The position numbers and the translations under genes are program-made. From Aurantiochytrium sp. KH105 (Eukaryota; Sar; Bigyra; Thraustochytrida; Thraustochytriidae), in assembly GCA_003116975.1 (NCBI GenBank), contig BGKB01000192.1, positions 1-64,000 of the forward strand: a stretch of 64,000 nucleotides of DNA, read 5' to 3'. This document shows positions 6,740 to 64,000 of the stretch, piece after piece (the first letter of the stretch is position 1; the number at the start of each line of letters is the position of its first letter). The notes beneath the pieces were generated by a model. The model had not been told where the DNA came from and searched no databases. It worked only from the letters and a program-made list of their open reading frames with translations.

Positions 6740-7693
6740 TCACTCATCGTCCTTGATAAAGTGCGGCTGAATGAACTTATTCATGCTGAAGATGGTGACC
6801 TTTTCCTGTCCAAAAAGGTCGCGAAGGGTATCGTCGCAAATGATCTCACGCTTGTTGTCGGGATTTTGGAGTTCGTTCGCGCGGATATGTTCCCAAAGTT
6901 TTTTCGTAACAGCCGTGCGCGCTGCCGTCTCCTCATTCATAAATCTCTGCAAGGGCTCGCTGATTCGCAAAACCTTGCAGAAGCCACCGCCGCCCCCGCC
7001 CCCGCGACGCTTGCGCTTGACACCAGACTTGGTCTTCGGCTTGGAAGGTTTCGCCGTCTTGGGAAACGCCACTTCATCCTTGAGCTTCAGCTTGTAAGTA
7101 TCAAAGGTGCGCTTGCCTTCATTCCAGGCCTTTTGCGAAATGACATGGCAGGTGAGGAGTTTATTCATGTTGAACATGGTAACCTGGTCACGCTGGAAGA
7201 GCTCTCTGAGCGCATCGTCACATCTGATCTCTCGCTTGTCATTGGGATTCTGAAGATCATGTTCCCGAATGTACTCCCAGAGCTTCTTTACGATCTGTGG
7301 GCGGGTCTCTGTTTCCACGCCGAGAAATTTGGCCAGCGGCTTAGAGAGCACGACTTGCGTCCGAGCGAGGCCACCACGGCGAGATTTGCCTGTTCCAGCG
7401 GCATCTGGCGAGGAGGAACTCGAGGCTTCTGACTCCGAGGAGTCATCATTACCATTTCTTTCGTTTATAACAGCTTGTATCGCATTCTTGAAGGCCTTCT
7501 TATCCACAGGCTGCCCCAGGGCCTTGCTGACGGCGGCTCGCGCTACTTTCAATTTGATGTCGTTGATATCTTCGAGCCCATCGAGATATTCATGGATAGG
7601 TTGTTTGAGCGCTTCCTCGGACGTGATGGTCTCTACGCCCGCATCCGATTCATTGGCCGCGCCTGTGGCCCCTTGCGAAGCTTCAGCATCCAT
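6740..7693 (-). CDS. DEK_C plus tandem SWIB/MDM2 domain protein
   Basis: A 317-residue nuclear protein. Residues about 24-78 look like a DEK C-terminal helical domain. Two SWIB/MDM2 folds follow, at about 112-186 and 240-315; each carries the family signature (LWEYIREHDLQNP and LWEHIRANELQNP, then a C-D-D-x-L-R-x-LF motif). A serine/acidic linker (80-100) and a basic KRKRR plus polyglycine stretch (227-237) separate the modules. SWIB proteins are known subunits or partners of SWI/SNF and RNA polymerase complexes, so a chromatin or transcription role is expected. The open frame extends upstream to 8008, but that part is arginine-rich, low-complexity and opens without supporting homology. ATG 7693 starts the plausible protein. 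Confidence 0.88.
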   Translation of the reverse strand: MDAEASQGATGAANESDAGVETITSEEALKQPIHEYLDGLEDINDIKLKVARAAVSKALGQPVDKKAFKNAIQAVINERNGNDDSSESEASSSSSPDAAGTGKSRRGGLARTQVVLSKPLAKFLGVETETRPQIVKKLWEYIREHDLQNPNDKREIRCDDALRELFQRDQVTMFNMNKLLTCHVISQKAWNEGKRTFDTYKLKLKDEVAFPKTAKPSKPKTKSGVKRKRRGGGGGGGFCKVLRISEPLQRFMNEETAARTAVTKKLWEHIRANELQNPDNKREIICDDTLRDLFGQEKVTIFSMNKFIQPHFIKDDE

Positions 7694-8689
7694 GGCCGCG
7701 TTCCCGCGCCCGCAAAGCGACGCCGCTCGACCGCTTTCTGCGCGCGCTGTCCCGCCCGCTGCGCCGCCTGCTACGTTTTGTTGTGCTTTGCTGCTTCGCG
7801 TGGCGTTGCTTTGCTTTACTTTGCCTCTTCCCCTGCCGCTTTGTTGCTCCCTGCTTGACTCGCGCGCGCGAGCGCGAGCGCGCCGGAGCCCTCGCGCTGC
7901 ACGCGGCCACGCGCGGCTTCTTTGTCTGCTGCTCCGCGCAGATCGCCCGCCTCGCTGTTTCGCCTTTATCTCTCTCTCTCCGCTCGGGCTCCTCTCTCTC
8001 TCCCTCACTCTCTCTCACCCTCCCTTTACTAGGCCTGACTCCCCCTCCTCTCTCTGTGTATTTTGCAGATAGATCTTACGGAAAGCTTTGGCATCTACGA
8101 ATCGTCTGTGGAGCCATCCTCGACAGCCGCTCTGCTCTGACGCCAACAACATGCTCGGCGGGGAGAAAAGGAGCCAAGGTGCGCCAGCTTTAAATCTCGC
8201 CGGCGTTTGGACAACGCCACCGGCAAAAGTAGGCAGCAAAACTGCGAGAAAGCTCAAAAGATTGGATAAAATTAACCCTGTACTAGATGTAGAATCAAAA
8301 TCATGGGTGGGGTCAAAGCAGCAGCATGCGAGCAGCATGCGAGCCGTTCATCCCTTCCTCTCTCATTACACGCCACGGCACGGCACGAGGCGACACACGG
8401 TTCAATACGACTGTTCTTCGCGCCATGTGGCGATCAAGTCAAGCGCTTGCAGCACGAACGGCGCCTTGCATTGTCCGAGGTATTTCATCTACAGCAGCAT
8501 GAGCATGGATGCCAGTAAATACGTAAGTTATACATGAAGACCTGTCGTGGTACATGGCCTCTTTTTACCTACACTTCATCATGATATCCGTGCATCGTGA
8601 GCAAATTTTGTGTGTTTACACGGTCGCGGTCCATGTCCATCAATTTATCTGGCGACGAAAGGTGGGCAGATGGAAAGAGAGGAGGCATT
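7694..8689. other. spacer upstream of the SWIB gene
   Basis: The minus-strand SWIB promoter should lie here. CT-rich runs occur at 7971-8025 and a CTAGGCCTG motif at 8029-8037. A plus-strand frame from ATG 8150 codes for about 129 residues without recognisable features and is not called a gene. Confidence 0.5.
8029..8037. promoter_or_regulatory. CTAGGCCTR motif
   Basis: CTAGGCCTG, 336 nt upstream of the SWIB gene ATG (minus strand). Confidence 0.3.
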
Positions 8690-21115: not shown

Positions 21116-22249
21116 CTAGTATCCATCTTCGAGCTCATAGGCAGCAAGAGGAAAGTCTGGATAAGGTGATGGCATGTGTCGGCGTCGACGACGGTGAGCT
21201 GCCAAGGTTTTGGACAGCTGGGATTGTGGTTTGGGCCTTGCAAGTCGTTGCAGACGCTTGACAGTGTCAATGTGAACGGCGCGTTTGTCTTGCAAGGTTT
21301 GAATGTATTTGTTTAGCATGCGCTCCTTCGCTTCGCTGTATGCTTCTGGGAGCTCGTGACGAAGCCGCGCTTCGGCGTGCATCTCGGCCTCAAGTGCAGC
21401 AATTTGATCCTCAGCTTTGGTCATTTTCGTCACTGCAAGCTTGATGCGACGAAGAATGCTCGATGGATCATAATTCTCCTCTTGTCGGTCTCGGTGGTCG
21501 TCATCGTCAACGTCATCATCGTTTTCATCCTCTGTTGTACGTGGGTAGATTCGCTCGTTTCGGGTATCTTCGTCGCCATCGTCGTTGTCTTGGTAAAAAT
21601 ACGTTTCGCTGTCACGAGTGGCGCCTCGAGAGGGTGGATGCCGACTTCCCTTTCGCAGGGGAGCGCTCGGACTGTGATGCGAGATATGGGCGTTGCTGAG
21701 CGTTTCAGGGTTGCTGCGCTCGAACTTGCGAGTGCCCTCGAGATCTTCGTCAGTTTCGGCACGCAGCCAGCCGAGGAGGATATCGCCAAGTCGCGTCGAG
21801 CGGCAAAGGCGCACAAAGGCTGCTGGCGAGAGCACCGCGCCGAGCCCGGGATCTGCAAAGCGTTCAAAGGTGCGTCCCGCGTCGAAGACATCAATCTGGT
21901 CTCCAACGAGCGAAATCATGTGCTTGAACTGGGCTGGAGTGACGACATCTGAGGCGCGGTGGACGCTTCTCGCGCCGAATCTCTCAAAGAGTCTTCCCGC
22001 AACAAAATCCGTGCTGCCGCGGTTTTTAAAGGCGGCGCGGCGGTCCGCGTGGAGGTCAAAGAGGACCTGCAGGAAGGCCTCCTGGGAGAGTCCACTGGCC
22101 TTGCGGTGGCGCTCAAAGACGCGACCAGCGTCGAAGGCGCGTAGGTCCTCGTGTTCGAGATCCTCGTCGAGACTTGCATCTTGTGGAGGCGCGTCTGTGT
22201 CGCGCGTGTCGCGCGTGTCGCGCAGCCCGTGGCTCGTGAAATTTTCCAT
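21116..22249 (-). CDS. protein with three degenerate EF-hand-like repeats and a C-terminal coiled coil
   Basis: A 377-residue protein. ATG 22249 (MENFTSHG) is chosen because the longer frame opens at TTG. Three copies of an FDAGRxFER motif (residues 39-47, 82-90, 122-130, period about 41-43) are each followed by an LSxxAFxxL helix, which looks like decayed EF-hand or HLH repeats without a full calcium loop. The middle is acidic (DNDDGDED, then DDDVDDDDH). Residues about 268-345 form a charged coiled coil. The tail is basic (HRRRRRH). The family is not recognised. A structural or calcium-related cytoskeletal role is possible but speculative. Confidence 0.65.
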   Translation of the reverse strand: MENFTSHGLRDTRDTRDTDAPPQDASLDEDLEHEDLRAFDAGRVFERHRKASGLSQEAFLQVLFDLHADRRAAFKNRGSTDFVAGRLFERFGARSVHRASDVVTPAQFKHMISLVGDQIDVFDAGRTFERFADPGLGAVLSPAAFVRLCRSTRLGDILLGWLRAETDEDLEGTRKFERSNPETLSNAHISHHSPSAPLRKGSRHPPSRGATRDSETYFYQDNDDGDEDTRNERIYPRTTEDENDDDVDDDDHRDRQEENYDPSSILRRIKLAVTKMTKAEDQIAALEAEMHAEARLRHELPEAYSEAKERMLNKYIQTLQDKRAVHIDTVKRLQRLARPKPQSQLSKTLAAHRRRRRHMPSPYPDFPLAAYELEDGY

Positions 22250-22388
22250 AGTGTCTGCGAGATCAATCAAGCTAGGGTTCGACTGGTGTTTTCAGGGGAG
22301 AGGCGGAAGGCACGGGCGCGGCTCGGGCGAGCAAACTGCTCGAGTCTGCTCTGCGCTTGCGGTGCTCTGCTCTGCGCTCGCAGTCCTC

Positions 22389-22447
22389 TGCGCTTGCGCT
22401 TGCGCTTGCGCTTGTGCTTGCGCTTGCGCTTGTGCTTGCGCTTGCGG
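22389..22447. repeat. (GCGCTT)n hexamer array
   Basis: About ten GCGCTT/GTGCTT units upstream of the EF-hand-like gene. Confidence 0.85.
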
Positions 22448-23234
22448 TGCTCTCAGGCTATTTTGCAGGGCTCGTATACGCAGTCAAAGCAAGTGACTAC
22501 ATTTGGGTTGCTCACAACCGTCATCGCAGAACGTCTGCGGAACATCTCCGGCACCAGCATTGGCGATGTGTGTCCGGTGTTCCTCCTGTTCTTCCGGGAA
22601 ATCCCGGCCGCCCTCCTTGACGCGCGGAATGTTCTTGCGAGCTGCTGCGGGGCGCGTCAGAGGCGGGTGCCCCCGCAGCGCTCGGACTTGTGTCGCCGCG
22701 GAAATCGCCACGAAAGCGCGCGGAATTGATCGTGCGAGGAATGCAGTAGTATAGTATCCTGTAGGGGCGCTTAGAGCTACTGGGCCTAGCCTAGGATGTT
22801 TGTGAGCTAGGCACTGCTACTGCTAGCGCCCTGACCCTCCGAGGCAGGTAACTAAAGGAGGCGACGGACCTCGGAGGAGGCAGCCGCGCCGAGGCCCGTC
22901 GCCTCCTCTGCATGCCTCCCTCCCTCCCTCTCTTCCTCCCTCCCTCGGCGCTTTGCCCGCGAGCTGCCAGCTTGCTTTCTCGCCTCGTAGCTTGCCGGGG
23001 CGTGCTGGAGGCGCGGCTGCCCTCGCATCGACCCGGCCAATGGCAAGTTGCGCGGTGCTTTCGCGGCGCTTCCGGCTCTGCTTTTTGTGGTCGCGCGCCT
23101 GCGAGGAGGCGACGGTGGAAAACGCGACACACGGGAGCGAGATGCCTCGCCTCTCTCTGCCGGCCGCCACTGTCCGCTGCAGATGCCCGCCGGGTCAACG
23201 CGCGGTCCGGCGTGTCAATGACCTTCCGGGGCCT

Positions 23235-23298
23235 GGCGTGCGTGCGTGCGTGCGTGCGTGCTTGCTTGCTTGCTTGCTTGCTTACTTGCTTGCTTGCT
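23235..23298. repeat. (GCGT)n then (GCTT)n tetranucleotides
   Basis: A run of TGCG units changes into TTGC units without a break, suggesting slippage plus point change. Confidence 0.85.
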
Positions 23299-23896
23299 CA
23301 TGTATAAGTTGCTTGCTTGTGTTGCTTGTTGCAGTTGCCTGCGTTGCTTGCGTCGCCCACGCTTGCCTGGTTGCTGTTGAAAGACACACACAGAGCAGTC
23401 GCAGTCGTGGCAAGGAGATGCGGCGCTCGCCATCGCTGCCGGGGCTGGTGTGGCTGTGGCTGGTGGTGTGGCTGGCCGTGGCACTGTGCGTGCATGCTGT
23501 GGCTGGCGGATGCGGTCACACTGCCACCGGCGGCAGCTGCCGAGTGCAGCTCGCCCTACCTAGCAGGTCGGTCAGTCGGCCTCGCCCGCTCCGCCGCTCC
23601 GGGCCGCGCCGCATTCCCGAGTCCCTGCCTCGCGCAGAGAGTCCCGTCTGCCTCTGCCTTGTTTCTTTTTTCTTTCTTTCATTCTTTCTTTCCTTCTTTC
23701 GTCTCGGCCTCGATGTCGCGATGCGAACCGCGAGGCGCAGACGCTGCGCATCACCTGCGAGGAGCTGCGGGCCCCGACCTGTGGAGGATCCAGGGCGCAA
23801 TGGGGAGGCACGTGCAGCTTGGACTATACCCACAGCTCGCCACAGACGCCCCTATCGTCTTCAGCCCTGACCTTCTGGCTCTGCCCTGCTCGGCTT

Positions 23897-23930
23897 TGCT
23901 CTGCTCTGCTCTGCTCTGCTCTGCTCTGCT
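23897..23930. repeat. (CTCTG)n pentanucleotide repeat
   Basis: The reverse complement of the CAGAG unit found at 15711-15760. About six units. Confidence 0.85.
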
Positions 23931-24621
23931 GTGCTTGTCTAGCTTGCTTGCTTGCTTGCTTCCGCGGCTTGCTTTGTGCTGAGCTTGCAGCCAGTCAGCC
24001 AGCTGGCAGCTGCAGTTGCCTTGGCTTGCCCTGCATGCTAGCTAGCTAGCTAGCAAGCTAGCCAGCTCATCGCGGCAGAGCCAGCCTCCCGAGCCAGCCC
24101 CCTCCGCCTCCCCTGCCTGCCGGTGTCTGTCAGTGTCTGTCTGTCTGTCAGTCTGCCTGTCCGCACTGCGCTGCGCGTGCGTGCTCGCCGAAATCCCCCG
24201 CGCCCTGGCGTGGCCTGGCCCGCCTCGGGTTCCTTTTCCAGGCGTGATGCGTCGTGGCGTTCGTCTCCGCAGTGCGTGCGACGGGGAGACAAGCAGCAGC
24301 AGTGCAGGGAACGAGTGCACGACTTGCGAAGATTCTAATTCATGTTGCTGTTGTTGGTTGATGAAGAATTTGATTGTGCTGCGCGCAGGGCCAGGAAACG
24401 GCAAGGAATTCCTGTCAGCCAGGCTGCCGGGCAGCTAGCTATAGCTAGCTAGCTAGCTGCCAGACAGAAGCCACAAACCCGCCAAACAACAACTATGCAG
24501 CCAGCCAGGCAGCTGGAGCGGTGCACGCGACCACGTGTGGTTGCAAGCTGCCAAGTTTCTTGGAATCCGGCCAGCGCGGAGCGGCCAACATGCGAGCGCC
24601 ACTTGCCATTGGTTGTCGCCA

Positions 24622-24650
24622 CATGCAACATGCAACATGCAACATGCAAC
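24622..24650. repeat. (ACATGCA)n heptamer repeat
   Basis: Four tandem units of 7 bp. Confidence 0.8.
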
Positions 24651-25153
24651 GTGGGAACGGGAGGAGAAGGTTTCCCTGCCCGCGGAGAAATTGAGAAGAA
24701 CGGGCGGGCGTGGTCCGGCTTCCCTCTCCTTCCTCCGGCCCTTCCTCTCCTCTCCTCTCCGCGCTCCCTCGCTCCCTCCCTCCGCCAGGTGCCGGTTTGC
24801 CCGCCGAATCCTCCCTCCTCCCGGGACCAGGCACGCGGCGCCGCTGCGAGACGCGCCGCGCCCTGGCGCCGCCAGCCCCCGCGCCGTCGCTCATGCCTGC
24901 CGTGGCCGCTGCTCTGCCGGAGCACAAGAAAGAAGCGCCGCCCCCGGGAGGAGGAGGAGGGGAGACGCCGCGAGTCTGAGACCTTCGCGCGGCGCTTCCC
25001 GGCGCTTCTTGGGCGGCCGACATTGGGCCGAGGCCGAATCCGCGCGGAGCATCGCAGCGGCCGTGGCGGGCGGCCAGCATGGATTGTGCAAGTCTGATTA
25101 GGCGCGGCGAGGCGAGGGCGCGTGAGGCCCAGCGGCCGCAAGGCGAACGGACG

Positions 25154-25196
25154 CATGGAATGGAATGGAATGGAATGGAATAAAATGGAATGGAAT
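25154..25196. repeat. (ATGGA)n pentanucleotide repeat
   Basis: About eight units with one interruption (TAAAA). Resembles the GGAAT unit of some animal satellites but is far too short to indicate contamination. Confidence 0.85.
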
Positions 25197-25477
25197 GCCA
25201 TCCAGGCAGCACGAGGGAGGATAGAGAGCAGCTGCCATATGGCTGCAGAGCGAGGGACTCGTCAGCGCCGGGCGGAGTGTGCGTGAGGCGACGGCCCCGC
25301 GGGGACAAATCCGAGAGCGCGCGCTCCGTGCCTTGCGCCTTCCTCGCTGCCGCTTGCGCTCCGTGCTCTGCGCCCTCCTCGCATGCCGCTTGCGCTCCGA
25401 GCCCGGAGCAGCCAGCACGGGCGCTGCAGAACTACACGCACATCAAGCGCATTCCATTCCTTTCTTTTTCCTTTCCT

Positions 25478-25491
25478 CCCCCCCCCCCCCC
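25478..25491. repeat. poly-C tract
   Basis: Fourteen C in a row after a polypyrimidine stretch; its length may vary between reads. Confidence 0.8.
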
Positions 25492-25838
25492 TGCCAAAAC
25501 GGCCCACAGCCGCGCGGGACCAGCGCGCGGGCGCTTCCAGAAGAAGCCGGGCTTCCTTCCTTTTGTCCTCCTCGTCGCCGCGCTCCGCGTCAGGGCGTGA
25601 GAGAGAGAGAGAGTGAGTGTGCGAGCGAGCACAAGCTCATGATGTGTAGTGCATGATGAGCGAGGGTCACATACGCGCGCAGCCAGGCAGCCAGGCCGGC
25701 ATGCAAGCAAAATCCAAACCCCCAACGCAAGAATCCAAAGCAAACCCCAAACTCCAAACAGCAAGCAAATCGAATCACAACAAGCTCGACTGTAAGTAGA
25801 GGAAGAACAAGCAAGCAAGCAAGCAAGCAACAGCAAGT

Positions 25839-28265
25839 ATGGCGATCCAGGAAGGTCAGGTCCAGGGCGAGGGCGCACAGGCCGCCGAGCCGCCAATGCT
25901 CGAGCCCAAGGTGATCAAGACCACCGCATCGGAGAGCGATGTGTCCGAGGCAGAGACCAAGATGAGCACCAGCAACAGCTCCGCGGCGCTCAACAACCTC
26001 GACGGCGCCGAGACCCGCTCGCGCGGCGGCTCCGTCGCCTCCCAGGCCACCGCCGCCATCCCACTCCTCGGCTTCGGCACCTTTAACGAGTTCAAAGACG
26101 GCGAGGCCGTCAAGGACGCCGTCAAGGTCGCCGTCAAGGAGGGCTACCGCATGTTCGACTGCGCTGCCCTCTACGGCAACGAAAAGGAGGTCGGCGAGGC
26201 CCTCCACGAGAGCGTCGAGGAGAACGAGGTCGAGCGCGAAGATCTCTTCATCTGCTCCAAGCTTTGGTGCTGGGACGCAGCACCCGAGGACGTCGAGGAT
26301 GCCTGCCGCCGCACCCTCGCCGATCTCCAGGTCGAGTACCTCGACGTGTACATGATGCATTGGCCCAACCGCATGGCCAAGGGCGGCAAGCTCGTCTCCA
26401 AGGACTACGGCGGCAAGTTCGACTACGAGGTCGTCCACGACGGTACCGACATCGAAAAGATCATGGAAACCTACCACGCCATGGAAAAGCTCGTCGACCT
26501 CGGCCTCGTCCGCGCCCTCGGCGTCTCCAACATGGGCCCCCGCACCCTTCAGGGTCTCCTCGCCCGCTGCGAGGTCCGCCCCCTCGTCCTCGAGGTCGAG
26601 ATGCACCCGTACCTCGCCCAGCCCAGCCTCCTCGAGCTCTGTCAGAACGAGGGCGTTAGCGTTATTGCCTACGCCCCCCTCGGCAAGGTCGGCTACCGCG
26701 ACGAGGGCCACCCCTCGCTCCTCGAGGACGAGACCATCCTCGACATTGCCGAGGAGACCGGCAAGGGCCCCGGCCAGATCCTCCTTCGCTGGGGCATCCA
26801 GCGCGGCACCTCCGTCATCCCCAAGAGCCTCCGCCCGGGTCGCATCGCCGCCAACCGTGACGTCCTCGACTGGCGTCTCACCGTCCCGCAAATGGAGCGC
26901 ATCGATGCCCTCGATCGCGGCTTCCGCTTCGTCAGCCCGCCCTGGTTTGACCTCGATACCGACTCCGAGTACTGCGTGCGCGGCGGACACCCCGGTACCC
27001 AGGCCTTCCGCACCCCTTGCGAGGTCGACGACAACGGATGCTTCCGCAACAAGTTCGAGCGCCCCGGCAAGTACCTTGAGACCGAGATTGTCATCCAGCG
27101 CGGCATTCTCGACAACCTCAAGACCATCGGCAAGACCATCATCCCTGAGGTCTCCCACGATGCCCCCAACTACCTCGTCACCGACGAGATCGTCGACAAC
27201 CTCTATGGTGACAAGGTGCTCCAGGGCTTCCGTGACTGCGGTCTCCAGATCGAGAAGATTGTCATCCCCTCGGCTGCCATGGACGACTCTGGCGAGCCTT
27301 CCACCGAGCCCTTCAAGAACAAGAAGCAGTACCACCGCATTGTCGACAGCATTCTCGCCACTGGCGTCTCCAAGCACACCTGCCTCATCTCCCTCGGTGG
27401 CGGCACCGTCGATAACATTACCGGCACCATCGCCGGTACCCTGTACCGCGGTATCCACCTCGTGACCATCCCCACCACCACCATGGGCATGTGCGACGCC
27501 TCGTGCGACTTCAAGAAGGCCTTCAACGTCTCGGACTTTGGCAAGAACCTCCTCGGCTGCTACTTCCCTGCCGACTACCTTGTCATGGACCCAGACTGCC
27601 TCAAGTCTCTCAGCGACCGCCACATTCTCAACGGTATCGCCGAGGCCCTCAAGCATGCTCTCTGCCAGTGCACGGACTTCACGGCTACCATTGTCGACCC
27701 GCTCCGTGATGCCGGCGAGGACAAGAGCAAGGTTCTCCGTGACGGTGACTACCTGCTCAAGCTCATCATCGAGTGCATGGAGAAGAAGGTGTCCACCCTC
27801 GGCCCTGCCTACAACGCTGAGCACGCCTACAACGAGATGGTCCCGCAGTACGGCCACGCCCCCGCACACGCCATCGAGCATCTCTCGTGGCACCACGGCA
27901 ACGACCCTCTCCTCCACGGTGAGGCCGTCGCCATCGGCATGTGCGTCTCTGCCGAGGTCGCCTACATTCTCGGCATCTGCGAAAAGTCTGTCGTCGACGA
28001 GCACTACGAGATCGTTGGTGCCACCGGCCTCCCCTGCTTCGTCCCGGACACCATGACCATTGACCAGGTCCTCGACACCCTCAAGTACGACAAGCACTTT
28101 GTCGGCGGCAAGGCCACCATGGGTCTCGCCAAGAAGATCGGCTGGATGGCCGCCAACGAGGAGAACGACTCGTACGCCTTTATGATCGACAACGAGACTC
28201 TCCGCACCGCTTTTGAGCGCAACATCGAGCGTCGCGAGAACCAGAGCCAGCAAAAGTCGGCATGA
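25839..28265 (+). CDS. aldo-keto reductase fused to DOIS/DHQS-like sugar-phosphate cyclase
   Basis: An 808-residue two-domain enzyme, intron-free from ATG 25839. After a disordered leader (1-68), residues about 72-385 are an aldo-keto reductase: GFGTF near the start and a complete tetrad D107, Y112, K141, H174 with canonical spacing. Residues about 415-795 are a sugar-phosphate cyclase of the dehydroquinate synthase fold: NAD-binding GGG (520-522), PTT at 545-547, E602 in GIAEALKH with K605, H677 in AHAIE and H693 in HGEAVAIGM, so the metal triad is intact. Asn526, in place of the Asp typical of AroB, and RGIxLVxxPTT resemble 2-deoxy-scyllo-inosose synthases more than shikimate enzymes (family comparison from memory). 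Inference: the cyclase makes a cyclitol ketone from a sugar phosphate, and the reductase handles the ketone or a precursor. Strong C-ending codon bias suggests high expression. No targeting peptide is evident. Confidence 0.88.
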   Translation: MAIQEGQVQGEGAQAAEPPMLEPKVIKTTASESDVSEAETKMSTSNSSAALNNLDGAETRSRGGSVASQATAAIPLLGFGTFNEFKDGEAVKDAVKVAVKEGYRMFDCAALYGNEKEVGEALHESVEENEVEREDLFICSKLWCWDAAPEDVEDACRRTLADLQVEYLDVYMMHWPNRMAKGGKLVSKDYGGKFDYEVVHDGTDIEKIMETYHAMEKLVDLGLVRALGVSNMGPRTLQGLLARCEVRPLVLEVEMHPYLAQPSLLELCQNEGVSVIAYAPLGKVGYRDEGHPSLLEDETILDIAEETGKGPGQILLRWGIQRGTSVIPKSLRPGRIAANRDVLDWRLTVPQMERIDALDRGFRFVSPPWFDLDTDSEYCVRGGHPGTQAFRTPCEVDDNGCFRNKFERPGKYLETEIVIQRGILDNLKTIGKTIIPEVSHDAPNYLVTDEIVDNLYGDKVLQGFRDCGLQIEKIVIPSAAMDDSGEPSTEPFKNKKQYHRIVDSILATGVSKHTCLISLGGGTVDNITGTIAGTLYRGIHLVTIPTTTMGMCDASCDFKKAFNVSDFGKNLLGCYFPADYLVMDPDCLKSLSDRHILNGIAEALKHALCQCTDFTATIVDPLRDAGEDKSKVLRDGDYLLKLIIECMEKKVSTLGPAYNAEHAYNEMVPQYGHAPAHAIEHLSWHHGNDPLLHGEAVAIGMCVSAEVAYILGICEKSVVDEHYEIVGATGLPCFVPDTMTIDQVLDTLKYDKHFVGGKATMGLAKKIGWMAANEENDSYAFMIDNETLRTAFERNIERRENQSQQKSA

Positions 28266-28534
28266 TCCATTGTGCCCTCGCCGCACTCTGACTTGCTTGA
28301 ATCATCACACAATTTTTCTCCGTAAACTAGGCCTAAAACACAAAACATAGAATCCTTTTCGTATCAGTCTACGTATACCTACCACACCTTCTATACCACA
28401 GACCATCAGATTCATTTTTCATTGCCTTATCATCTTTTGATGCAAAATTACTTGCCACCGTGGAAAAGTCACGCCAACTTGCAGTCGTTGACAAACAATT
28501 TGTGAAGCGCAACAAAAGAAAAAAGGGAAATATT
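28266..28534. other. convergent 3' spacer
   Basis: A 269-nt AT-richer spacer between two stop codons, with CTAGGCCTA at 28327-28335. Both 3' ends must fall here. No clear polyadenylation consensus is seen. Confidence 0.4.
28327..28335. promoter_or_regulatory. CTAGGCCTR motif in a 3' spacer
   Basis: CTAGGCCTA between two convergent genes. This location does not fit a promoter role. Confidence 0.2.
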
Positions 28535-31500
28535 TCAGATCTCGTCACCGTCAGACTCGTACAAACTGCCGTATTCAAACTCTTCCAAGTTGTCTGTGCG
28601 TGCGATACGAACAGATGTGTCAGACTCCTCCTGGGCCCCACGAGGCGGGCCGCTGCACAGATTGTCTTCGCGAAATATACTTCTGAACGAATCAAAGGTT
28701 AGCGAAGGCGCTTCCAGACCACCACTAGTAGCTGCAGCAGCAGCAGCAGCAGTAGTGGTAGATGACACACGCTGCGACGAAGTTGCACGCGCCGACCGAC
28801 GCCCAAACTCCGAATTCGCTTCATCGATCGCATTCTGTGCGGCAAGACGCGTAGGAAAACTGCCCAGGTACGTATGACGTCCGTCTGCAACGTGATGCGC
28901 ATCAAAGGCTCCATCAATGCGAGCTTCCACCCCTGAAGATGCGCGAGGGTCCCAAGGATCCCGAGAGATGAAAACGTCGCCCATATTGTCCACCTCACGA
29001 GCCTGCAGCTCCTGCAACGCGTTCTCGACCCCAATTGCCAGCTCGCGAATTTCACGCTCCGTCTGCGCGAGGTCATCGAGCTGTTCCCTAAAGCGTCGGC
29101 TTGAAGACTCCAGCTGCAGGCTGTGCACCATGACCATTGACTGGATCAACTCTCCGGACTGCATGTCACGCTGCCAGCGATCCGTTTGTGCAATCTCGAG
29201 ACCCCGCGTGGCGTCCAGTACGGGAAGCTCTGAGGCATCCAATTCGTCGTCGAGGCGGTCCTCGCGTAAGGCAATCTCTCGATCCTTGAAAAGGACGGCC
29301 GCGTCGTCGATTCGAGAGAGTGTCGTTGAGTAGAGAGACATGAGTTCCACGGCAACCTCGCCTGCACGGCGTCGATTGGGAATGGCCTCGGCCACGATGC
29401 GCTGCACCTCTGGGAAGGACAGCAGGTTTCGCGCGCGGGCTTCGGGCACGGATTTTAACTGATTCAGAATCTTACCCTGCTTGGAAACAAGGTACAATTC
29501 GCTCAGCTCCATTTTGATGTAGCGCTGCAGCCAACCCTCTCTCCGAAATCGCTGACTCCGTTGCAATGCCGCATGCTGCTCTCTTCGGAGATCTTCTTCC
29601 TCCTGCACTTGCTCGGCCACCTTTTGATAGCCAAAAATGAGAATCGCCTGAAACATGTTCGTAATGAGAATGATCACCACCGTGGCAAAGACAAAGGCGA
29701 AAAAGAGCCCCTGCACGAACGGAATCGAATACTCCGTGTCAAGGATCTGAAACACTGGCAGACTCAGAGGAACCGAGGTCGCCCCATATCGCAGCGCGAC
29801 AAAACTCAAGGTGCTTTGGCTCGGCGTAGCGACATAATCAGCTTCTGCAAAGGCCGCAAATCCCTCTCCAAAGACCTGCAGAGTGAAGAGGAGAACGCTT
29901 GTCAAAGACTCCGCAAAGCTCGAGAAACGCAACGAATAGTACCCATATGCAAACTTGCAGAAAAGCGTTAGGCCAAGAACCGATACGACTGTAAACACAA
30001 GCCAGCCGGCGAGCCACGTCCCGCTCTCCACCATGCTTGTCATAGCAATGCTGAAGCGTTTGTCCATGTCCATAAATTTGAAGAATTTGAGAAAACAAAT
30101 GATCAACGACCACGCAGAAATCATCTGAGACTGCAGGAGCACGCGCGAGTATGCATCGAAATCAGAGACAAAGACGTCTCGGCCATCGGACATGAGCGAA
30201 ATCAAGGTCGATTCGTCTGTTACCAGAGCGGCCTCTTGATTGGTTCGAAGGTTCATTCGGATCGCCACCGAGACAATTACAAGCGACAGGTTCAAGGTGT
30301 CGTACATGGCCCAGCCGAAGAACAGCTGAATCAACGAACCCTTGCGCACGAGCGGAACGAGATGGAAAAACAAGAGGTAAGCGAGCAACAGCGAGGAGAA
30401 AAGCATGAGCACAAGCTCCAGGACCTCGGTCGTCGATTCCGTTTCTGCGTTCGTCACCAGCTTGAAAGGGCGCGTCTCTGCCGTCGTCGCCGTCACACCG
30501 TATGGATTGAGCTCAATCAAAAATGTCTGGTAGACGTATGTGTCTAGGTTCAAGCTGTAGGCAGCAAATGAGACAAAAAGAGCCACAGTCGAGTCGTCGA
30601 GCCACCGGTCGGCTCTGAGCTCCTCGAAATGAGCGCTTGCAGCCGAGCGATTTCCACCTTGAATGTCAATGACGAAACCTGAGGCCGGGTACACGTAAAA
30701 GATTCCCGCAAATCTCAAATTACTCGTGATTTTCTTCGCATCCAGTATCAGGTTTCGGCCTTCAGAAACTACAGTGCTCCTCGCGAGTGTACTTTCCTCT
30801 TGAAATTCGTACGCTCGCCCTGATATTGGACCCTGAAAGGGGTCCTTGTTCAGATTGACCTCGTCGTATGGCAGGTTGCACTTCTGTTCGCTTTGCTCAC
30901 TCTTTGAATTCGTGCATGGTTCTTGCTTGACACGGAGCTGCCGCAAACGGATGGCGCCAACAGGTACAAAGGCCTCATCTGGCATGATGAGCGGAACTTG
31001 TCGTTGTACTGCCGTCGAAGACGATGATGCTTGCACAGATACAGATGGCCCCATCTCCGTCCCAGACGCTTCGCCCGTAAAGAGCTGCGATTCTTGCAAG
31101 ACAAATTGAAGCCAGCTGTACGTCTCCTCGAGATTGGAAATATGCGCAAAGGTCATGGACCTATTCCCATCGACGCATGGGATGGTGCTTGCGGTCGCCG
31201 ATGATGCGTTAAGGACCACTCCATCCATGCTTGAGAAGGGAAGCACGCAGTGCTGATCAACGCTGCTGTTGGACGAATACATGAAAGATACAGTCTCCGC
31301 GGTGAATGGTCTCGTAGCTAGCGTTTGAGAAAAAAGCAATCGGAATTGATACGCGTCAGGAAGAGAAACATAGTCCAAAAGATAGATGCAATAGTACAGG
31401 ACCAAGACCGAGTACACGATCATCTCAAGGATAAGAAGGCATCGCTTCCGTTTGCGCTCAAGCATTCGAACCGCCAGCTTTTGGTCCAAGAATTTGTTCC

Positions 31501-31708
31501 TAAACTCGTCTGGGGTGCGTGCGTCTTGAAAGCGTCTTCTGTACATCTCGCGCTCCGCGCGACTTTCCGTGTAGGCGCTACTGCGCAGCGCTGGCGGGCG
31601 CACATCTTTCGGCAACACATTAGCCCCTCGGGTTGCAGTTTTTGTTTTCCCTGGTGCCGGGCGCCTCGACTTCTCCTTCTTGGCTCCATAACCCTCGGCT
31701 CTTTCCAT
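28535..31708 (-). CDS. polycystin-2/TRPP-like cation channel
   Basis: A 1057-residue membrane protein from ATG 31708. Helix 1 spans about 90-112. A long extracytosolic polycystin domain (about 115-425) holds the family's IRLRQLRV motif before a Cys and a later WLDDSTVALFVSFAAYSLN-like strand, with several N-glycosylation sites. Five more helices lie at about 426-452, 458-485, 526-550, 563-590 and 661-690, with a pore-helix-like stretch between the last two (FAESLTSVLLFTLQVFGEGF). The cytosolic tail is long, with coiled-coil-like segments. Near residues 933-970, GRHTYLGSFPTRLAAQNAIDEA resembles an AP2-type three-strand/helix module, an unusual feature for this family. PKD2-type channels carry calcium or monovalent cations, often on cilia, which fits the axonemal dynein nearby. 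The encoded alanine run reflects a GCA repeat at 28737-28752. Confidence 0.85.
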   Translation of the reverse strand: MERAEGYGAKKEKSRRPAPGKTKTATRGANVLPKDVRPPALRSSAYTESRAEREMYRRRFQDARTPDEFRNKFLDQKLAVRMLERKRKRCLLILEMIVYSVLVLYYCIYLLDYVSLPDAYQFRLLFSQTLATRPFTAETVSFMYSSNSSVDQHCVLPFSSMDGVVLNASSATASTIPCVDGNRSMTFAHISNLEETYSWLQFVLQESQLFTGEASGTEMGPSVSVQASSSSTAVQRQVPLIMPDEAFVPVGAIRLRQLRVKQEPCTNSKSEQSEQKCNLPYDEVNLNKDPFQGPISGRAYEFQEESTLARSTVVSEGRNLILDAKKITSNLRFAGIFYVYPASGFVIDIQGGNRSAASAHFEELRADRWLDDSTVALFVSFAAYSLNLDTYVYQTFLIELNPYGVTATTAETRPFKLVTNAETESTTEVLELVLMLFSSLLLAYLLFFHLVPLVRKGSLIQLFFGWAMYDTLNLSLVIVSVAIRMNLRTNQEAALVTDESTLISLMSDGRDVFVSDFDAYSRVLLQSQMISAWSLIICFLKFFKFMDMDKRFSIAMTSMVESGTWLAGWLVFTVVSVLGLTLFCKFAYGYYSLRFSSFAESLTSVLLFTLQVFGEGFAAFAEADYVATPSQSTLSFVALRYGATSVPLSLPVFQILDTEYSIPFVQGLFFAFVFATVVIILITNMFQAILIFGYQKVAEQVQEEEDLRREQHAALQRSQRFRREGWLQRYIKMELSELYLVSKQGKILNQLKSVPEARARNLLSFPEVQRIVAEAIPNRRRAGEVAVELMSLYSTTLSRIDDAAVLFKDREIALREDRLDDELDASELPVLDATRGLEIAQTDRWQRDMQSGELIQSMVMVHSLQLESSSRRFREQLDDLAQTEREIRELAIGVENALQELQAREVDNMGDVFISRDPWDPRASSGVEARIDGAFDAHHVADGRHTYLGSFPTRLAAQNAIDEANSEFGRRSARATSSQRVSSTTTAAAAAAATSGGLEAPSLTFDSFRSIFREDNLCSGPPRGAQEESDTSVRIARTDNLEEFEYGSLYESDGDEI

Positions 31709-32547
31709 CGCGTCTCCTGCTTGCCGCGTGGCGGCCGCTCGCCCCGGGTGGCGGCCTCGCTCACGGTCGGCCGTGGTCTCTCTTCACTTGGGTTTGTCCT
31801 GCCATTCGAGTTCTTTGCAAGCAGAGACGAAGCAGAGCGAAAGCAGAGACGAAGGAGAAAGCAAGCACGGTTCATGGCGAGGGACTTGCGCGACCAGCAA
31901 GCCAGCAAGCCAGCCAGCCAGCCAGCCAACGTGACACAACCATGAAATCGCCCGCGCGGCCGGCGCGAAAAGGATGGCGATCGAGGCGACGAGCCAGGTA
32001 TAACACGAGATCAGAAGTCGATCCTTTGAGTGCGCGGGTCATCGGATTTCCGTTCTGCAAGATGAGATCAAGCGAGCGAGCGAAACGACGCCATTCAGGA
32101 AAGGACTTGCGTTACGTGTGTGGGTCAAGCGAGCTCCACATGAACCCTTTGCACAAAGCTTTTTGAGCCAAAATCTCGTGCTTTTGCGCTTGTATTCGCT
32201 GTAATCTGCGGGTCATGGTGGTTCGTAAGCAATGAGCTGAGCGCGGTTGTAAGGCGAAGCTTTTCGTGAGGTCGCGGCTTTCTGGCGCACTTTGTATCTG
32301 ATTATCTCTACAGATCGCCGTGATCTGCACGACCGGAGTGGCAGAAAAGTTGATAGGCTCGCGCCTATTTTGCACGTCATGGTATTCCAAAAAATTGTGC
32401 CTCGGGGCCGGCCGCATTGCGTTGATTTCATACTCGATGACTGTATTATATAGAAAAAGAACAAATGATCACGTGAGCTACTACTTGGACTGCATCAGAG
32501 AGGTTTCATTAGTATTGCAACTGCAAACCAAGCAGCAAATACTCGGC
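31709..32547. other. spacer upstream of the polycystin gene
   Basis: Frames here are overlaps of the channel gene or short. Tandem CAGC/AAGC units occur at 31897-31930. It should contain the polycystin promoter and the 3' end of the MINDY gene. No gene is seen. Confidence 0.45.
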
Positions 32548-38717: not shown

Positions 38718-39039
38718 GCCGCCGCCCGCGCCGCGCCGCCGCGCCGCCGCGCTCCGTCCGGCACCGCCGCGCGAGGAGGCGGAATGATGAGGCCTCCTGA
38801 CTCGCTCGGCCCGACCTCCTCGAGCACAGCAGCGCAGAGCAGCGCAGAGCAGCGCAGAGCAGCGCAGAGCAGCGCAGAGCAGCGCAGAGCACAGCAGAGC
38901 AGAGCAAAGCGCCAAAGGCTTGCTCGCCCCGCGTCACTTCTGCCGTGCCGTGCCTTGCCTTGCCTGCCTTGCCTGACTTGCCTTGCTCTGCCCGTCCGCG
39001 CGCGGCGTCCGGCTCAGTCCAGAGTCTGGGTCTTCGAGG
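38718..39039. promoter_or_regulatory. divergent promoter region with decamer array
   Basis: Both the WBP4-like (minus) and HAD-ABH (plus) genes start from this 322-nt gap. It contains six perfect AGCGCAGAGC decamers (38831-38890) and a TGCCT/TTGCC-rich stretch (38941-38990). No TATA box is obvious. Confidence 0.5.
38831..38890. repeat. six tandem AGCGCAGAGC decamers
   Basis: A perfect 10-bp array inside a bidirectional promoter. The half unit CAGAG/CAGCG relates it to the CAGAG pentamers elsewhere. Confidence 0.9.
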
Positions 39040-40701
39040 ATGGCGACCTTGAACGGGAAGCGGGCCGTGGTCTTCGACCTGGGCGGCGTGGTGCTGGGGT
39101 CGCCGCTGCAAGGTATCGCGGAGCACGAAAAGGAGTTTGGCATCGCGGACGGCTTCGTGAACATCAGCATCGTGCAGCGTGGAAGGCAAGGCGCCTTTGA
39201 GAGGCTGGAGCGCGGGGAACTCCCGCTCGATGACTTTTACCGCGTCTTCAGGGAGGAACTCGGATCCCCCGAGGCGATGGAACAGTTCAAGGCGTACCTG
39301 ACCAAAAAAGGAAAGCCCGTGCCGCCCAATCTGCCGGCATCATACGACATTGACACGGAGAAGATGTTCGGCACGATGATGTCGTGTGCCGCCCAAGTCA
39401 ATCGCGACATGTGCCACGCCCTCTTTGTGCTGCGCGGCCTGGGTCTCAAAGTGTGCGCCTTGACCAACAACTGGAAAATGGGCGGGGACGATGACTCGAG
39501 CTCGACAAAAATTCTTCGAGCGTTTTTCGATCACATCCTCGAAAGCTCCGAACTTGGCCTGCGGAAGCCGGACGAGCGCATCTATCGGCATACGGAAAAG
39601 GTCCTTGGCGTCTCTTCGGAAGAGATTTGCTTTCTCGATGATATTGGCACCAACGTCAAGGCGGCGCGCAAGATTGGCTGGACGACTGTCAAGGTCGAAC
39701 TCGGCAACAAGCTCAAGGCTATTCGCGAGCTCGCCGTCGCCCTCGGACTTCCGGAGGACACCTTGCTGATCCACAACGACCGTCCTACCAAGCTGCAACT
39801 CCCGGTGAGTGCAGCCGGCAACCTCGTCTGCGACCTGTATGGAAGTGCGACGGACCCTATCGTCATCTTCTTGCACGGCGGCGGCCAGACGAGACACACG
39901 TGGGAACGCTCGGCAGCGGCCTTTGTCGCCGAGGGCTTTTGCGCCCTCCTTGTCGACATGAAGGGCCATGGCGAGAGCGACTGGGATGAACGTCCTGGGG
40001 TGGACGATAACGAGCGCTATGCCGTGCGCTCGTACGCCGAGGATCTCGACCGCCTCGTAGCTTTCTTCACACTCAATGAGCACCCCCGTGGCTTTGCCAT
40101 CGTGGGCGCTTCTCTGGGAGGCATCGCTACACTTTCTACGGACCGTGCACGTCACGAAGCCGCAGCCATCGTCCTCGTGGACATTGTGCCGCGTATGCAG
40201 CCCGAGGGCGTGCATCGCGTCCTGAGCTGGATGAAGGAAACCGGCGAGGCTGGCTTTGACACCCTCGATGAGGCGGCTGACGCCATTGCGGCGTACAATC
40301 CTACTCGGACTCCCCGACCCCGCGAGGATGTCCTCGCCGGACTGCAAAAGAATTTGCGCCGTACACCAACGGGTCGCTGGAAGTGGCATTGGGATCCAAA
40401 GTTTGTCGGCTCGCAAAAGCCCGCGAATGCTGATCTCGAGGCGTACCACAGCCGGATTCAGGCCCATGCCAAGGACACCCAGACGCCGTGTCTCCTCGTG
40501 CGGGGCCGCGAGACGGACCTCGTCAGCGAGTCAGCCGCGGAAGAGTTTGTCCAAATCATGCCCAACGCGCGCTTCGTCAACGTCGAGAAGGCGGCTCATA
40601 TGGTGGTTGGGGACCGCAACGACGTCTTTGCCAGCGAGGCGCTCAGTTTTCTTCGCGCGCATCTTGCGCCGGAGCTTGCTTCTCCGACCGCCAAGCTCTA
40701 G
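39040..40701 (+). CDS. HAD-like domain fused to serine-type alpha/beta hydrolase
   Basis: A 553-residue protein. ATG 39040 (MATLNGKRAVVFDLGG) is used; the longer frame starts at TTG. Residues 8-232 are a HAD hydrolase domain of the EPHX2/ACAD10 type: motif I FDLGGVV (D13, but Gly15 where a second Asp is usual), motif II LTNNW (T142), K176 in GLRKPD, and motif III LDDIG (D200, D201). Residues about 260-545 are an alpha/beta hydrolase: HGGG at 279-282, nucleophile elbow GASLGG with S358, then D493 and H520 (KAAHMVV). The order is that of soluble epoxide hydrolase, but a serine stands where EPHX2 has its catalytic Asp, so an esterase, lipase-like or peroxidase-like activity is more likely. Loss of the second motif I Asp also suggests the HAD part may be non-phosphatase or structural. 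Probably soluble; no signal peptide. Confidence 0.87.
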   Translation: MATLNGKRAVVFDLGGVVLGSPLQGIAEHEKEFGIADGFVNISIVQRGRQGAFERLERGELPLDDFYRVFREELGSPEAMEQFKAYLTKKGKPVPPNLPASYDIDTEKMFGTMMSCAAQVNRDMCHALFVLRGLGLKVCALTNNWKMGGDDDSSSTKILRAFFDHILESSELGLRKPDERIYRHTEKVLGVSSEEICFLDDIGTNVKAARKIGWTTVKVELGNKLKAIRELAVALGLPEDTLLIHNDRPTKLQLPVSAAGNLVCDLYGSATDPIVIFLHGGGQTRHTWERSAAAFVAEGFCALLVDMKGHGESDWDERPGVDDNERYAVRSYAEDLDRLVAFFTLNEHPRGFAIVGASLGGIATLSTDRARHEAAAIVLVDIVPRMQPEGVHRVLSWMKETGEAGFDTLDEAADAIAAYNPTRTPRPREDVLAGLQKNLRRTPTGRWKWHWDPKFVGSQKPANADLEAYHSRIQAHAKDTQTPCLLVRGRETDLVSESAAEEFVQIMPNARFVNVEKAAHMVVGDRNDVFASEALSFLRAHLAPELASPTAKL

Positions 40702-50315: not shown

Positions 50316-53300
50316 TTAGTCATCCGTGGATGCCAAAAGGGCCACACCACCACGGATAAAGGTGTCTTGCGTCTTCGTTTCGTCAATGGGCACCGAGATG
50401 AGCATGATAAAGTTTGTCGAATGACCTGTGGTTGACAAGATACCTCGACGCTCGCTTGTACGGTAGCAAGGTGCCTCGTAGACGTGGCTCTTCTTCATGT
50501 CATCCTTCTTGCAAGGTTGGAAAAGCATCATCGGTGCAGGAGAAATAAGCACCTTTGGTAAGGACTCCGTAAGGATCATGCGCTCCTTGCAAAATCTTGC
50601 GCCATCGATAAAGAGACCATAGACGATCACTCCATCCTCGGGCGGTTCCGTCACTTCGTGCGGGTCTTGGCTGAGCATGATAAACTCAAAGTCAATCGTA
50701 TCGATTTCGAGGCCATATTTACGGGCAAAGTTCTGCAGAGAGCCCGTTAAAAACGCCTGCGTAAAGTAGAAGCCGCTGATCCAAAACGTGGGTGGCGGGA
50801 GACCATTCTCATCGTCGAGCCACTTTTGGAAAAAGTCAAGGCGCCCAAGCAAGTCCGAGACGTATCCAGCGAGCGGCTTGAGTGATGGGTAGCTGCTTGC
50901 GAGCCACTTTTTGGGCACGAGACCAAAGAGCAAAGCCTGTGCAACCTTTTCGAGTTCCTCGCTCATCACCACGAGGCCGCGCACAGCCTTCTTTACCTCT
51001 TTTAGGCTGTTGACCACGCAGTTGATGAGATTATTGAAGCGGGAAAGTTCTTGGCAAAGAACCGTATTCATCGACTGCTCCCAGCGGACGGGATACTTGA
51101 GTTCCGCAAGCTCCATGTTGTACGTCGCGGGCATCTTTTCGAGAATACTGTCGGCAATCGAGAAAATGGTGTCTTCGTCACTCATCGGCCCGCTTGCTGC
51201 GGGAGTGGCATCCTCGTCTTCCTTCTTTTCTTCCTCCGCCTTGTCCTTCTCTTCATCATCTCCAGCTTTTTCTTCTTCTTCTTCTTCTTCGCCGCCGGCT
51301 TGCTCCGCCTTTTGACAAAGCAGAAGGCTGTTGAAGAGAAGGTTTGTTTCGCCAATACCCTTGGTAATTGCTGCGTTTTCGTGCAGGCCAAAGACATCGG
51401 GTTTGTCGGCGAGAGGCAGCTTTTCAATGTAAGAGAGATATCCCTGATGATCTGTGTCCTCCGGCATCACATACGCTCCGCTTGGAGAGAACTGGTAGCC
51501 GTCTTCCAACACGCCATCATTGTAAAACAAATTTAGGATGCTCATCAAGCAACGACGGTCCTTGTCGTCCGTGACGCGACCGCCGTAGTTACATTGGCCA
51601 CACGTGTACCGCAGTGCTGCAAATGGAAGCTGATCGTAGAGATCGAGAAACTCGGCAAGCTGTCGCGTTGAAATGATGCGGTCGCTCTCACTGAATTCGT
51701 ACGGAACGTTGTATCCGGAAGGCCCGAACTTGACACGCTCTTGAACAATGGCGTGGAAGAAGGAAAGACTGAAGAGCAACTTTCGCCACTCCACAGGCCG
51801 GGATACAACCATGTCCATGAAGCCGGGCTCTGCAATGGGATCCTGCAGATAGCTACTCAAAATGTTCGCGCGCAAGCCGCGAGGAGGCTCGAGCGTCATT
51901 TTCACACTGTTCTGCAAAATGGAAACCGGAAAGTCATCCGTTGGATACGTCGTACACCAGAGGCGGTATTGGCGATTGCACGTGGCCTCCGAAGTAAGCT
52001 CGACAATGCGCTCCAGCGCAGGCATCCACGAGACGGCCAGATGGCAGTTTTGCAAAACGACCCAAATCTTCTCGTTCTCAGCACCCTGAGCCTTCTCAAT
52101 CATTGCCTCTGCCTTGATACCCTGTCCTTGGCCGAGCGAGATCGATTCGACACGGGCGTGAATCTCTTCACTCAGCTTGATGATCGCCGACATCGGATCA
52201 GAACCGGCAGAAAGAACAAAGACCAATGGCGTCAAGTATGATGCATCGCTGTAGCAGGCACCGAGATTGAAGCTCGGGGGCTTGACAAAACGATCGCCCA
52301 TCTTCTCAATCACAAAGTCCTGCACGGCCAGACTCACCTTGTCTGGACGCAGGCACCGCAGCACAAGCATTTTTTGAAAAGAAGACATTTTGTCCTCCCA
52401 CGTGTCCGGCAATGGCATTTGGTGCGCGTCGGCGGCATCGTAAATGGCCTGGAAACCGGACTTGAAGGCTGCCATGGATTCGCGGAGACCAGAAAATGCT
52501 GGCAGGTCGGCAAGCCGGCAAATTTCACCCCAGCCCTTCTCACCGAGCCACTCTGGGCACGGGTTGGGGTAAGGGTTGTCCGTAGCCACGCCACCGGTGA
52601 GGAGAAAGAGCCACTCTTGCCCGTTGATCTCGTTGCGACCAAAGAGGATTCGCACACATAAAAGAAAGCTAAAGAGGAGCTTGTCCTTTTCAAGCAGACT
52701 CCGGCACACGTTGCAGTACAGTGTGTACGTAAAGAACTCATTGAGAATATCGAGGCGTTTCTCGAGGTCATCGCAAGGCTCCGAGTCGTCGATCGCCTTG
52801 AGAAAAAGATTTCCAAACCATTCGAGCGAGTACTGATAGGTTGGCTCAATATTGGCCAAGTCTGCAATGCAAAAGTAGAGGATCTGGGCGTGGTATGCCA
52901 CTGGAACGTAACCCGCGCGCACTTCGTCGATCTTCTTTTCGGTGACCACTGCCACTGCTTGCTTCTCTTTGATATCATCTGCCAACACTTTACTCGACTT
53001 GAGCGTTTCAATGGCGCTTTCATCCTCGAGAATATTACCCGAGGATGACGAAAGAATCTGAAGAATCTCGTCTTCGCACTGTTTGAGCTTGGCTGCATTG
53101 TTGGCACCATCTACGATCAGGCGCTCCTTCTCTGCAGCAAGCTCAGGCTGCTCTGCTTTTACCACCTTGGCAAGCATTTGGTCCTGCAGACCTGCAGGAG
53201 TAATCATAAAGTTCAGCAGGGTCACTTTCACCGCAACCTCGGGCAAATAGTGAGGATTGCGCAATTTGGTCGTAATGTAGAAGCGAAAGCTATCCGAATA

Positions 53301-63515: not shown

Positions 63516-64000
63516 GTTTCACGTGTCTGCTCTGCACCACGAGAAAAAGCAAGCTCGTAGTTGCCACGAACACACGAGCAAGACGAGAGATTCACCAACA
63601 CGATTTAGATTTGGTGTGTCCTCGAGCGCTGCGCTGGCTCGAGGCCTCAACGCAGCCCTGCACACAGGGCGCACGCGCAATCGAGCGCTAACGCGAGCGC
63701 CAGCGCGCTCTGCTTGCAGCAGAGGTTTTTATGCTTTGCCCCACGGCGGTACTCTTTTTCTCTCGGGGTAAGTTGTGGCCGCTTACACTTTGTGCAGAGC
63801 AAGGAGCCTTACCTCTCTATTGCACTAAACCTAGAATACGTTTGTTGCCTGCTTCAGCAACTTCCTTTCCCGTCACCAACGTCTCGACTCCACTCAAGTT
63901 GTCTTGACTTGGTCTTGCTTGTCGCTTGCTTGCTTGCTTGCTTACTAGCTGGTGTATTGCTCGAAAAGCTAGCAGTCTCTCAGCTTTTTTCCACACTCCA
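63516..64000. other. dynein upstream region
   Basis: The dynein promoter should lie here. A GCTT tetramer run occurs at about 63923-63941. No other gene is seen before the window ends. Confidence 0.45.

Follow-up and report, generated by a model that had tools for sequence, protein, structure and literature searches.

A two-enzyme gene of Aurantiochytrium sp. KH105 joining an aldo-keto reductase to a DOIS-like sugar-phosphate cyclase: a candidate cyclitol synthase

The fusion gene and its two enzymes

The first 64,000 bases of contig BGKB01000192.1 from the thraustochytrid Aurantiochytrium sp. KH105, the whole stretch that was analysed and that we refer to as the window, include a gene in which an aldo-keto reductase (AKR) is followed in the same frame by a sugar-phosphate cyclase. 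An initial annotation, made from the letters of the sequence, had described two complete enzymes in one 808-residue chain, and both the open reading frame and the Pfam domains bear this out with exact coordinates. The parts of the gene, and the evidence that defines each of them, are as follows.

25839..28265, + strand: AKR-cyclase fusion gene, 808 uninterrupted codons, stop included (open reading frame call, translation, Pfam, codon usage)
25839..26054, + strand: N-terminal leader, residues 1-72, outside both domains (translation; AKR matches start at residue 70-73)
26055..26963, + strand: AKR1-like aldo-keto reductase domain, residues 73-375 (Pfam PF00248, PDB matches, residues)
26964..27044, + strand: linker, residues 376-402, in frame and without a start codon (codon blocks, Met scan)
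27045..28262, + strand: sugar-phosphate cyclase domain, residues 403-808 (Pfam, alignments, tree, approximately unbiased (AU) tests, structure model, Foldseek)

Among 200 mononucleotide shuffles of positions 22001-32000, scored on one strand, the longest frame reaches at most 429 codons (mean 196), so the 808-codon frame is not a product of chance. No stop lies between the domains, and residues 352-481 contain no Met, so that the cyclase would be unable to start alone with its N-terminus intact. The codon bias is also even across the two domains, with a GC content at third codon positions (GC3) of 0.80-0.93 in all ten full blocks of 80 codons and 0.75 in the last 8 codons. On these grounds we reject the presence of two separate genes, and the frame almost certainly encodes a single two-enzyme protein. 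Over the gene as a whole GC3 is 0.87, Arg is encoded solely by CGC and CGT, and Lys is AAG in 98% of cases; in ten other genes of the window GC3 is 0.57-0.79 and the Arg codons are spread, making the bias of the fusion gene the strongest among the 11 compared. A bias of this strength suggests that the gene is highly expressed. A frame of 898 codons on the opposite strand (25590-28286, - strand) spans the same region, and we attach no meaning to it, as it is most likely a by-product of the codon bias.

The N-terminal enzyme matches Pfam Aldo_ket_red (PF00248) over residues 78-359 (6.7e-50; 170 bits against a cut-off of 24), and its best PDB matches are mammalian AKR1 aldehyde reductases (1.5e-77, residues 73-375). 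The catalytic tetrad that the initial annotation had pointed out, D107, Y112, K141 and H174, is in place when the residues are checked, and an IPKSxxxxRxxxN motif at residue 327 presumably denotes the use of NADPH. The whole barrel aligns with the AKR1 aldehyde and aldose reductases (2alr), with the tetrad and the cofactor motif in common; unlike these, the fusion AKR is joined to a cyclase and carries the 72-residue leader, which is acidic and, judged by eye only, without an obvious organelle targeting peptide.

The C-terminal enzyme matches the Pfam families DHQ_synthase (residues 488-596, 3.8e-24) and DHQS_C (residues 599-753, 2.4e-18), and its metal ligands form a Glu-His-His site of E602, H673 and H693. 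The triad proposed earlier was E602, H677 and H693, of which the first and last members hold. H677 is the second His of the GHxxxH motif, and since two sedoheptulose 7-phosphate (SH7P) cyclases, L003 and L004, keep H673 but have Pro at the place of H677, the ligand is H673. The spacing of 16 residues between the two His, which had been read as a likeness to dehydroquinate synthase (DHQS), is an accidental match of H677 and H693; H673 and H693 are 20 residues apart, as against 16 in Aspergillus DHQS and in L001, a 2-deoxy-scyllo-inosose synthase (DOIS).

Similarity alone cannot name the type of cyclase, because records annotated as AroB, DOIS and SH7P cyclase in a plasmid collection match alike, at 25.5-31.1% identity among the 40 of 115 matches listed. 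Searches of the PDB with phmmer place DHQS first (best 4e-32), followed by DOIS (7e-27) and ValA (1e-22). A structure model of the cyclase domain was built from a 28-row alignment (pLDDT 89.3, pTM 0.90), a single-sequence model with a pLDDT of 34 having been discarded, and Foldseek again ranks DHQS structures first (TMq 0.72-0.80), with DOIS at rank 35 (0.77) and ValA at rank 44 (0.77). The predicted structure confirms the cyclase fold; it does not separate DHQS from DOIS or choose a substrate.

Relationships of the cyclase

The query was aligned with two annotated DOIS proteins, a genome collection was scanned with this alignment, and the best 80 of 546 confirmed loci were kept. Eleven of these 80 (L009-L019) stand apart at E values of 8e-64 to 4e-47, the next match being at 7e-42, and at 31-38% identity they are the closest relatives of the query among the best 80. 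Ten are from Myxococcota by title or taxonomy; the remaining one, L012, is titled 'bacterium' and its genome was drawn among those of the same phylum. Viral contigs yielded pattern matches, but no confirmed relative.

A phylogeny of 53 rows (IQ-TREE with the C20 mixture), including 25 of the 61 AroB-like loci, groups the query with the 11 Myxococcota cyclases at 100/99, and this group is joined at 95/81 by 12 DOIS-like rows, which form a clade of their own (100/96); the query is sister to the DOIS clade and not inside it. A further locus, L048, joins next (100/98), and the AroB rows fall outside. AU tests reject the grouping of the query with AroB (p 0.0017), a placement that the initial annotation had named, together with DAHP activity, as decisive against its own reading. 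The grouping with L003, L004 and L005 is likewise rejected (p 0.011, in a tree with only two labelled SH7P members), and the grouping with DOIS is not (p 0.12).

Diagnostic residues were counted in 88 loci and the query, the 61 AroB-like loci being those that remain after the 11 Myxococcota loci, the 12 DOIS-like loci, L003, L004, L005 and L048 are set apart; the DOIS-like loci were chosen partly by these same residues together with two annotated members, and the counts for them are not independent of that choice. Position 526 is Asp in 61 of 61 AroB-like loci and in L003-L005, and Asn in all 12 DOIS-like and all 11 Myxococcota loci, in L048 and in the query, such that the Asn remarked on earlier in the GGGxxxD motif is both real and informative. 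At position 666 every AroB-like locus (61/61) has Arg, which we take to bind the carboxylate of 3-deoxy-D-arabino-heptulosonate 7-phosphate (DAHP) in AroB, and no other row has it, the query having Glu. Position 670 separates the groups further, with Asn in 61/61 AroB-like loci, Glu in 12/12 DOIS-like loci, Gln in the query and 11/11 Myxococcota loci, Asp in L003-L005 and Leu in L048. The AroB equivalog model TIGR01357 has a cut-off of 305 bits, which the query (184.9) does not reach; L009 (274), L016 (269) and L017 (267) also fall below it, and four of the six other proteins scored, L048 among them, reach it. A second homologue with canonical AroB motifs is encoded in all six Myxococcota genomes examined, so the Gln-type clade is not the DHQS of these bacteria. 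Tree, AU test, residues and model cut-off agree with the earlier view of the cyclase as DOIS-like and not AroB; by its sequence, it is with near certainty not a DHQS and is placed in a Gln-type sister clade of DOIS common to the query and Myxococcota. As for the direction of any gene transfer between the protist and Myxococcota, the gene may have been shared or acquired, the tree being compatible with either.

The likeness to DOIS (PDB 2d2x, 2gru), an enzyme that feeds aminocyclitol antibiotics, extends from the sister-clade relationship to the Asn of GGGxxxN, the absence of the AroB Arg, both His residues of GHxxxH and the same fold; the fusion differs in having Gln where DOIS has Glu at 670 and Lys where DOIS has Asn at 752, and in being AKR-fused and eukaryotic. 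The Myxococcota proteins share Q670 and N526 in 11 of 11 cases and a KHAL motif in most, but their N-terminal partner, where present, is a nucleotidyltransferase, their reductase is a separate gene, and a kinase gene is added. With 3-dehydroquinate synthase (AroB/AROM) the query has in common the fold, the metal ligands, Asp 553 and Lys 559/605, but not the Asp 526, Arg 666 and Asn 670 of the AroB-like loci. EEVS (ValA, 4p53) and DDGS (5tpr) belong to the same superfamily and fold, but both have Pro at 677 where the query has His.

Some of the other cyclases are noteworthy in themselves. L048 (5183-6199), from a metagenome-assembled genome labelled Thaumarchaeota, combines Asn 526, Gly 666 and Leu 670 and branches beside DOIS and the Myxococcota group. 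The Streptomyces loci L060 and L074 are DOIS-like with a very long shared branch (1.8) and an altered DGSLSNKQAVN motif. In the SH7P cyclase loci L003 and L004, on Rhizobium/Agrobacterium plasmids, a ROK-family gene comes after the cyclase gene, and a gene for a TIM-barrel protein or a dehydrogenase is also close.

Bacterial gene sets, proposed chemistry and alternatives

A nucleotidyltransferase is fused in frame to the N-terminus of the cyclase in nine of the 11 Myxococcota loci (L015 is cut by the contig end, and L017 shows none), the gene immediately after the cyclase encodes a short-chain dehydrogenase/reductase (SDR) in 10 (in the eleventh, L013, the contig runs out 140 bases past the cyclase gene), and a PfkB kinase gene is next in eight (it is partly cut in L019 and was not found in L012, and L011 and L013 end before it). 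A second draw recovered the cyclase in 14 of 187 Myxococcota genomes at E <= 1e-100, and of the 12 loci retrieved from them all have the nucleotidyltransferase and the SDR (12/12) and nine a PfkB match; this draw overlaps the first, L091 being L009 and L097 being L012, and the match figures of L089 are the same as those of L011. The nearest NCBIfam model to the nucleotidyltransferase part of L009 is inositol-1-phosphate cytidylyltransferase/DIPP synthase, at 106 bits against a cut-off of 580 that was set for a two-domain protein, a score far below it, but a likeness in keeping with a cyclitol. The set (for example L009:2798-6367) suggests a nucleotide-activated cyclitol pathway in Myxococcota, which, taken as the simplest chain, would run from the cyclase through ketone reduction and phosphorylation to nucleotide activation. 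We know of no name for these nucleotidyltransferase-cyclase proteins, and to our knowledge their pathway has not been described in the literature. The combination of cyclase and ketoreductase thus recurs with two unrelated reductases, one encoded by an adjoining gene in bacteria and the other fused in the protist.

The explanation that we favour, and consider reasonably probable from the sequence comparisons, is that the fusion is a bifunctional one-chain cyclitol synthase converting a hexose 6-phosphate to a reduced deoxy-inositol (quercitol). The C-terminal NAD- and metal-dependent cyclase would act in the manner of DOIS, taking an aldohexose 6-phosphate, oxidising C4 transiently, eliminating phosphate and joining C6 to C1, with a deoxy-inosose as the product; in the DOIS mechanism on a D-aldohexose 6-phosphate, C2-C4 are retained, C6 becomes CH2 and C5 carries the ketone. 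The sister-group relationship to DOIS and the diagnostic residues make such chemistry on an aldohexose 6-phosphate likely. The N-terminal AKR would then use NADPH to reduce the ketone of the ring, yielding a quercitol, and that it acts on the product of the cyclase is probable by analogy, the main support being the fusion itself and the reductase encoded separately after the Myxococcota cyclases. An end product of the quercitol class is, on balance, what these steps would be expected to yield. As the fusion has neither the kinase nor the nucleotidyltransferase of the bacteria, the free cyclitol would be the last product in the protist, and a presumably abundant enzyme could build this up as a compatible solute. 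We therefore retain as the best reading the proposal of the initial annotation that the protein leads from a sugar phosphate to a cyclitol in reduced form, possibly an osmolyte. To this we add the sister clade in Myxococcota, where the cyclase is accompanied by a reductase, a kinase and a nucleotidyltransferase, and the hypothesis on proto-quercitol that follows.

Thraustochytrids reportedly accumulate (-)-proto-quercitol as a main osmolyte, to go by the title of a report, and quercitols are protectants in some plants; (-)-proto-quercitol would be the candidate solute here. Stereochemical enumeration indicates that glucose 6-phosphate followed by reduction gives scyllo- or vibo-quercitol, that mannose 6-phosphate can give (1S,2R,4R,5S)-proto-quercitol, and that galactose 6-phosphate can give its mirror image; among these three the (1S,2R,4R,5S) isomer is reachable solely from mannose 6-phosphate. 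We take this isomer to be the (-) form, and (1R,2S,4S,5R) to be the (+) form. That the product is proto-quercitol in the role of principal osmolyte is a tentative suggestion, with somewhat less than an even chance of being right. The more specific proposal, by which the fusion would be the thraustochytrid (-)-proto-quercitol synthase, acting in two steps from mannose 6-phosphate through a Gln-type cyclase of new specificity shared with or acquired from Myxococcota, is doubtful as it stands. A narrow literature search, covering parts of the sources, found no quercitol-making gene named; three thraustochytrid papers that it returned have quercitol in their reference lists only, as far as their available text goes, and the available text of a proteome paper (PMC12221091) mentions neither quercitol nor a cyclase. 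Searches by title and abstract for an AKR-cyclase fusion, and for a thraustochytrid with dehydroquinate synthase, returned none.

Several other explanations were weighed against the quercitol synthase. The Pfam name of the domain, and the ranking of DHQS above DOIS by both Foldseek and phmmer, would be expected of a diverged shikimate-pathway DHQS with an incidentally fused AKR, but the rejection of the AroB grouping, the Glu and Asn at otherwise invariant AroB positions, the score below the AroB cut-off, and the coexistence of the Myxococcota relatives with an AroB-motif homologue make this highly improbable. An SH7P cyclase of the EEVS, EVS or DDGS type could serve the synthesis of a UV screen resembling gadusol or the mycosporines, the AKR acting as a tailoring reductase, and EEVS is found in eukaryotes too, with genes for EEVS and MT-Ox like those of gadusol reported in other eukaryotes, including the stramenopile Aureococcus (PMC4426668). 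The grouping with L003-L005 is nevertheless rejected, H677 is kept where L003 and L004 have Pro, Gln 670 stands where they have Asp, and neither a methyltransferase nor an ATP-grasp family match is present in the 18 other long uninterrupted frames of the window that were scanned with Pfam. We regard an SH7P cyclase as improbable, and the UV screen that the initial annotation had offered beside the osmolyte is disfavoured with it.

The pathway may instead lead to a cyclitol in activated or lipid-linked form, with the genes for its later steps at other places in the genome, and the fusion not be an osmolyte enzyme at all. The nucleotidyltransferase and PfkB kinase that accompany the Myxococcota cyclases speak for such a product, but neither family is matched in the fusion or in the other frames scanned in the 64-kb window, and a codon bias as strong as this accords better with bulk flux than with a minor head group, leaving this a minor possibility. 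A DOIS-type cyclase acting on glucose 6-phosphate, to yield scyllo- or vibo-quercitol, overlaps with the quercitol synthase that we favour and differs in the isomer. It agrees with the sister-group position of DOIS, with the DOIS structure 2gru, which by its entry title holds carbaglucose-6-phosphate, and with the enumeration from glucose 6-phosphate; on the other side are Q670, Glu in all 12 DOIS-like loci, by which the substrate may differ, and proto-quercitol being the isomer reportedly found in thraustochytrids, again by title. We consider this possible, though unlikely.

There are also points that weigh against a quercitol synthase, and in particular against one that makes proto-quercitol. 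The DOIS substrate, glucose 6-phosphate, gives scyllo or vibo and not proto isomers in the enumeration, and the mannose route needs a new C1 centre opposite in sense to that of DOIS. The branch of the query is long (1.59) and flagged by the tree tool, and with at most 38% identity to its relatives its specificity may have shifted. At position 666 the query has Glu, in contrast to Gly or Ala in the DOIS-like and Myxococcota rows, and L048 lacks the AroB Arg yet scores above the AroB cut-off (312 bits), so that a missing Arg alone is not decisive. A tblastn search for an AKR found none in the 88 and 12 loci scanned, so that the support for reduction by the AKR comes by analogy with the SDR. Finally, the GC content of the window is about 57%, compared with 43-47% in the thraustochytrid genomes compared (PMC10101102, PMC12258536 and PMC7073664).

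If the favoured explanation is correct, an enzyme leading directly from hexose phosphate to quercitol would differ from routes via myo-inositol, would define a new specificity group among the sugar-phosphate cyclases, and would allow production from a single gene as well as a means of testing how a main osmolyte is synthesised in a marine protist; the bacterial gene set would point in addition to nucleotide-activated cyclitols in Myxococcota.

Surroundings of the fusion gene

The Pfam scan of the surroundings covered 18 other long uninterrupted frames, 12 of which have a Pfam domain, with the strands alternating. A polycystin-type channel gene (28538-31783, - strand) is convergent with the fusion gene, the two lying tail to tail. 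A dynein heavy chain is encoded in a single uninterrupted frame of 4400 codons (50319-63518, - strand), and an SLC12 transporter elsewhere in the window occupies 1398 codons of a single frame. Such long single-frame genes suggest a flagellate eukaryote with few introns, such as a thraustochytrid; one thraustochytrid genome is reported to have 4,623 introns in 14,145 genes (PMC7073664), as against 3.64 introns per gene in another stramenopile, Hyphochytrium (PMC5795050).

A SWIB/MDM2 protein with two domain matches is encoded at 6743-8014 (- strand), and a single frame at 38977-40698 (+ strand) joins a HAD phosphatase to an alpha/beta hydrolase, which we take to be the domain arrangement known from soluble epoxide hydrolase of mammals.

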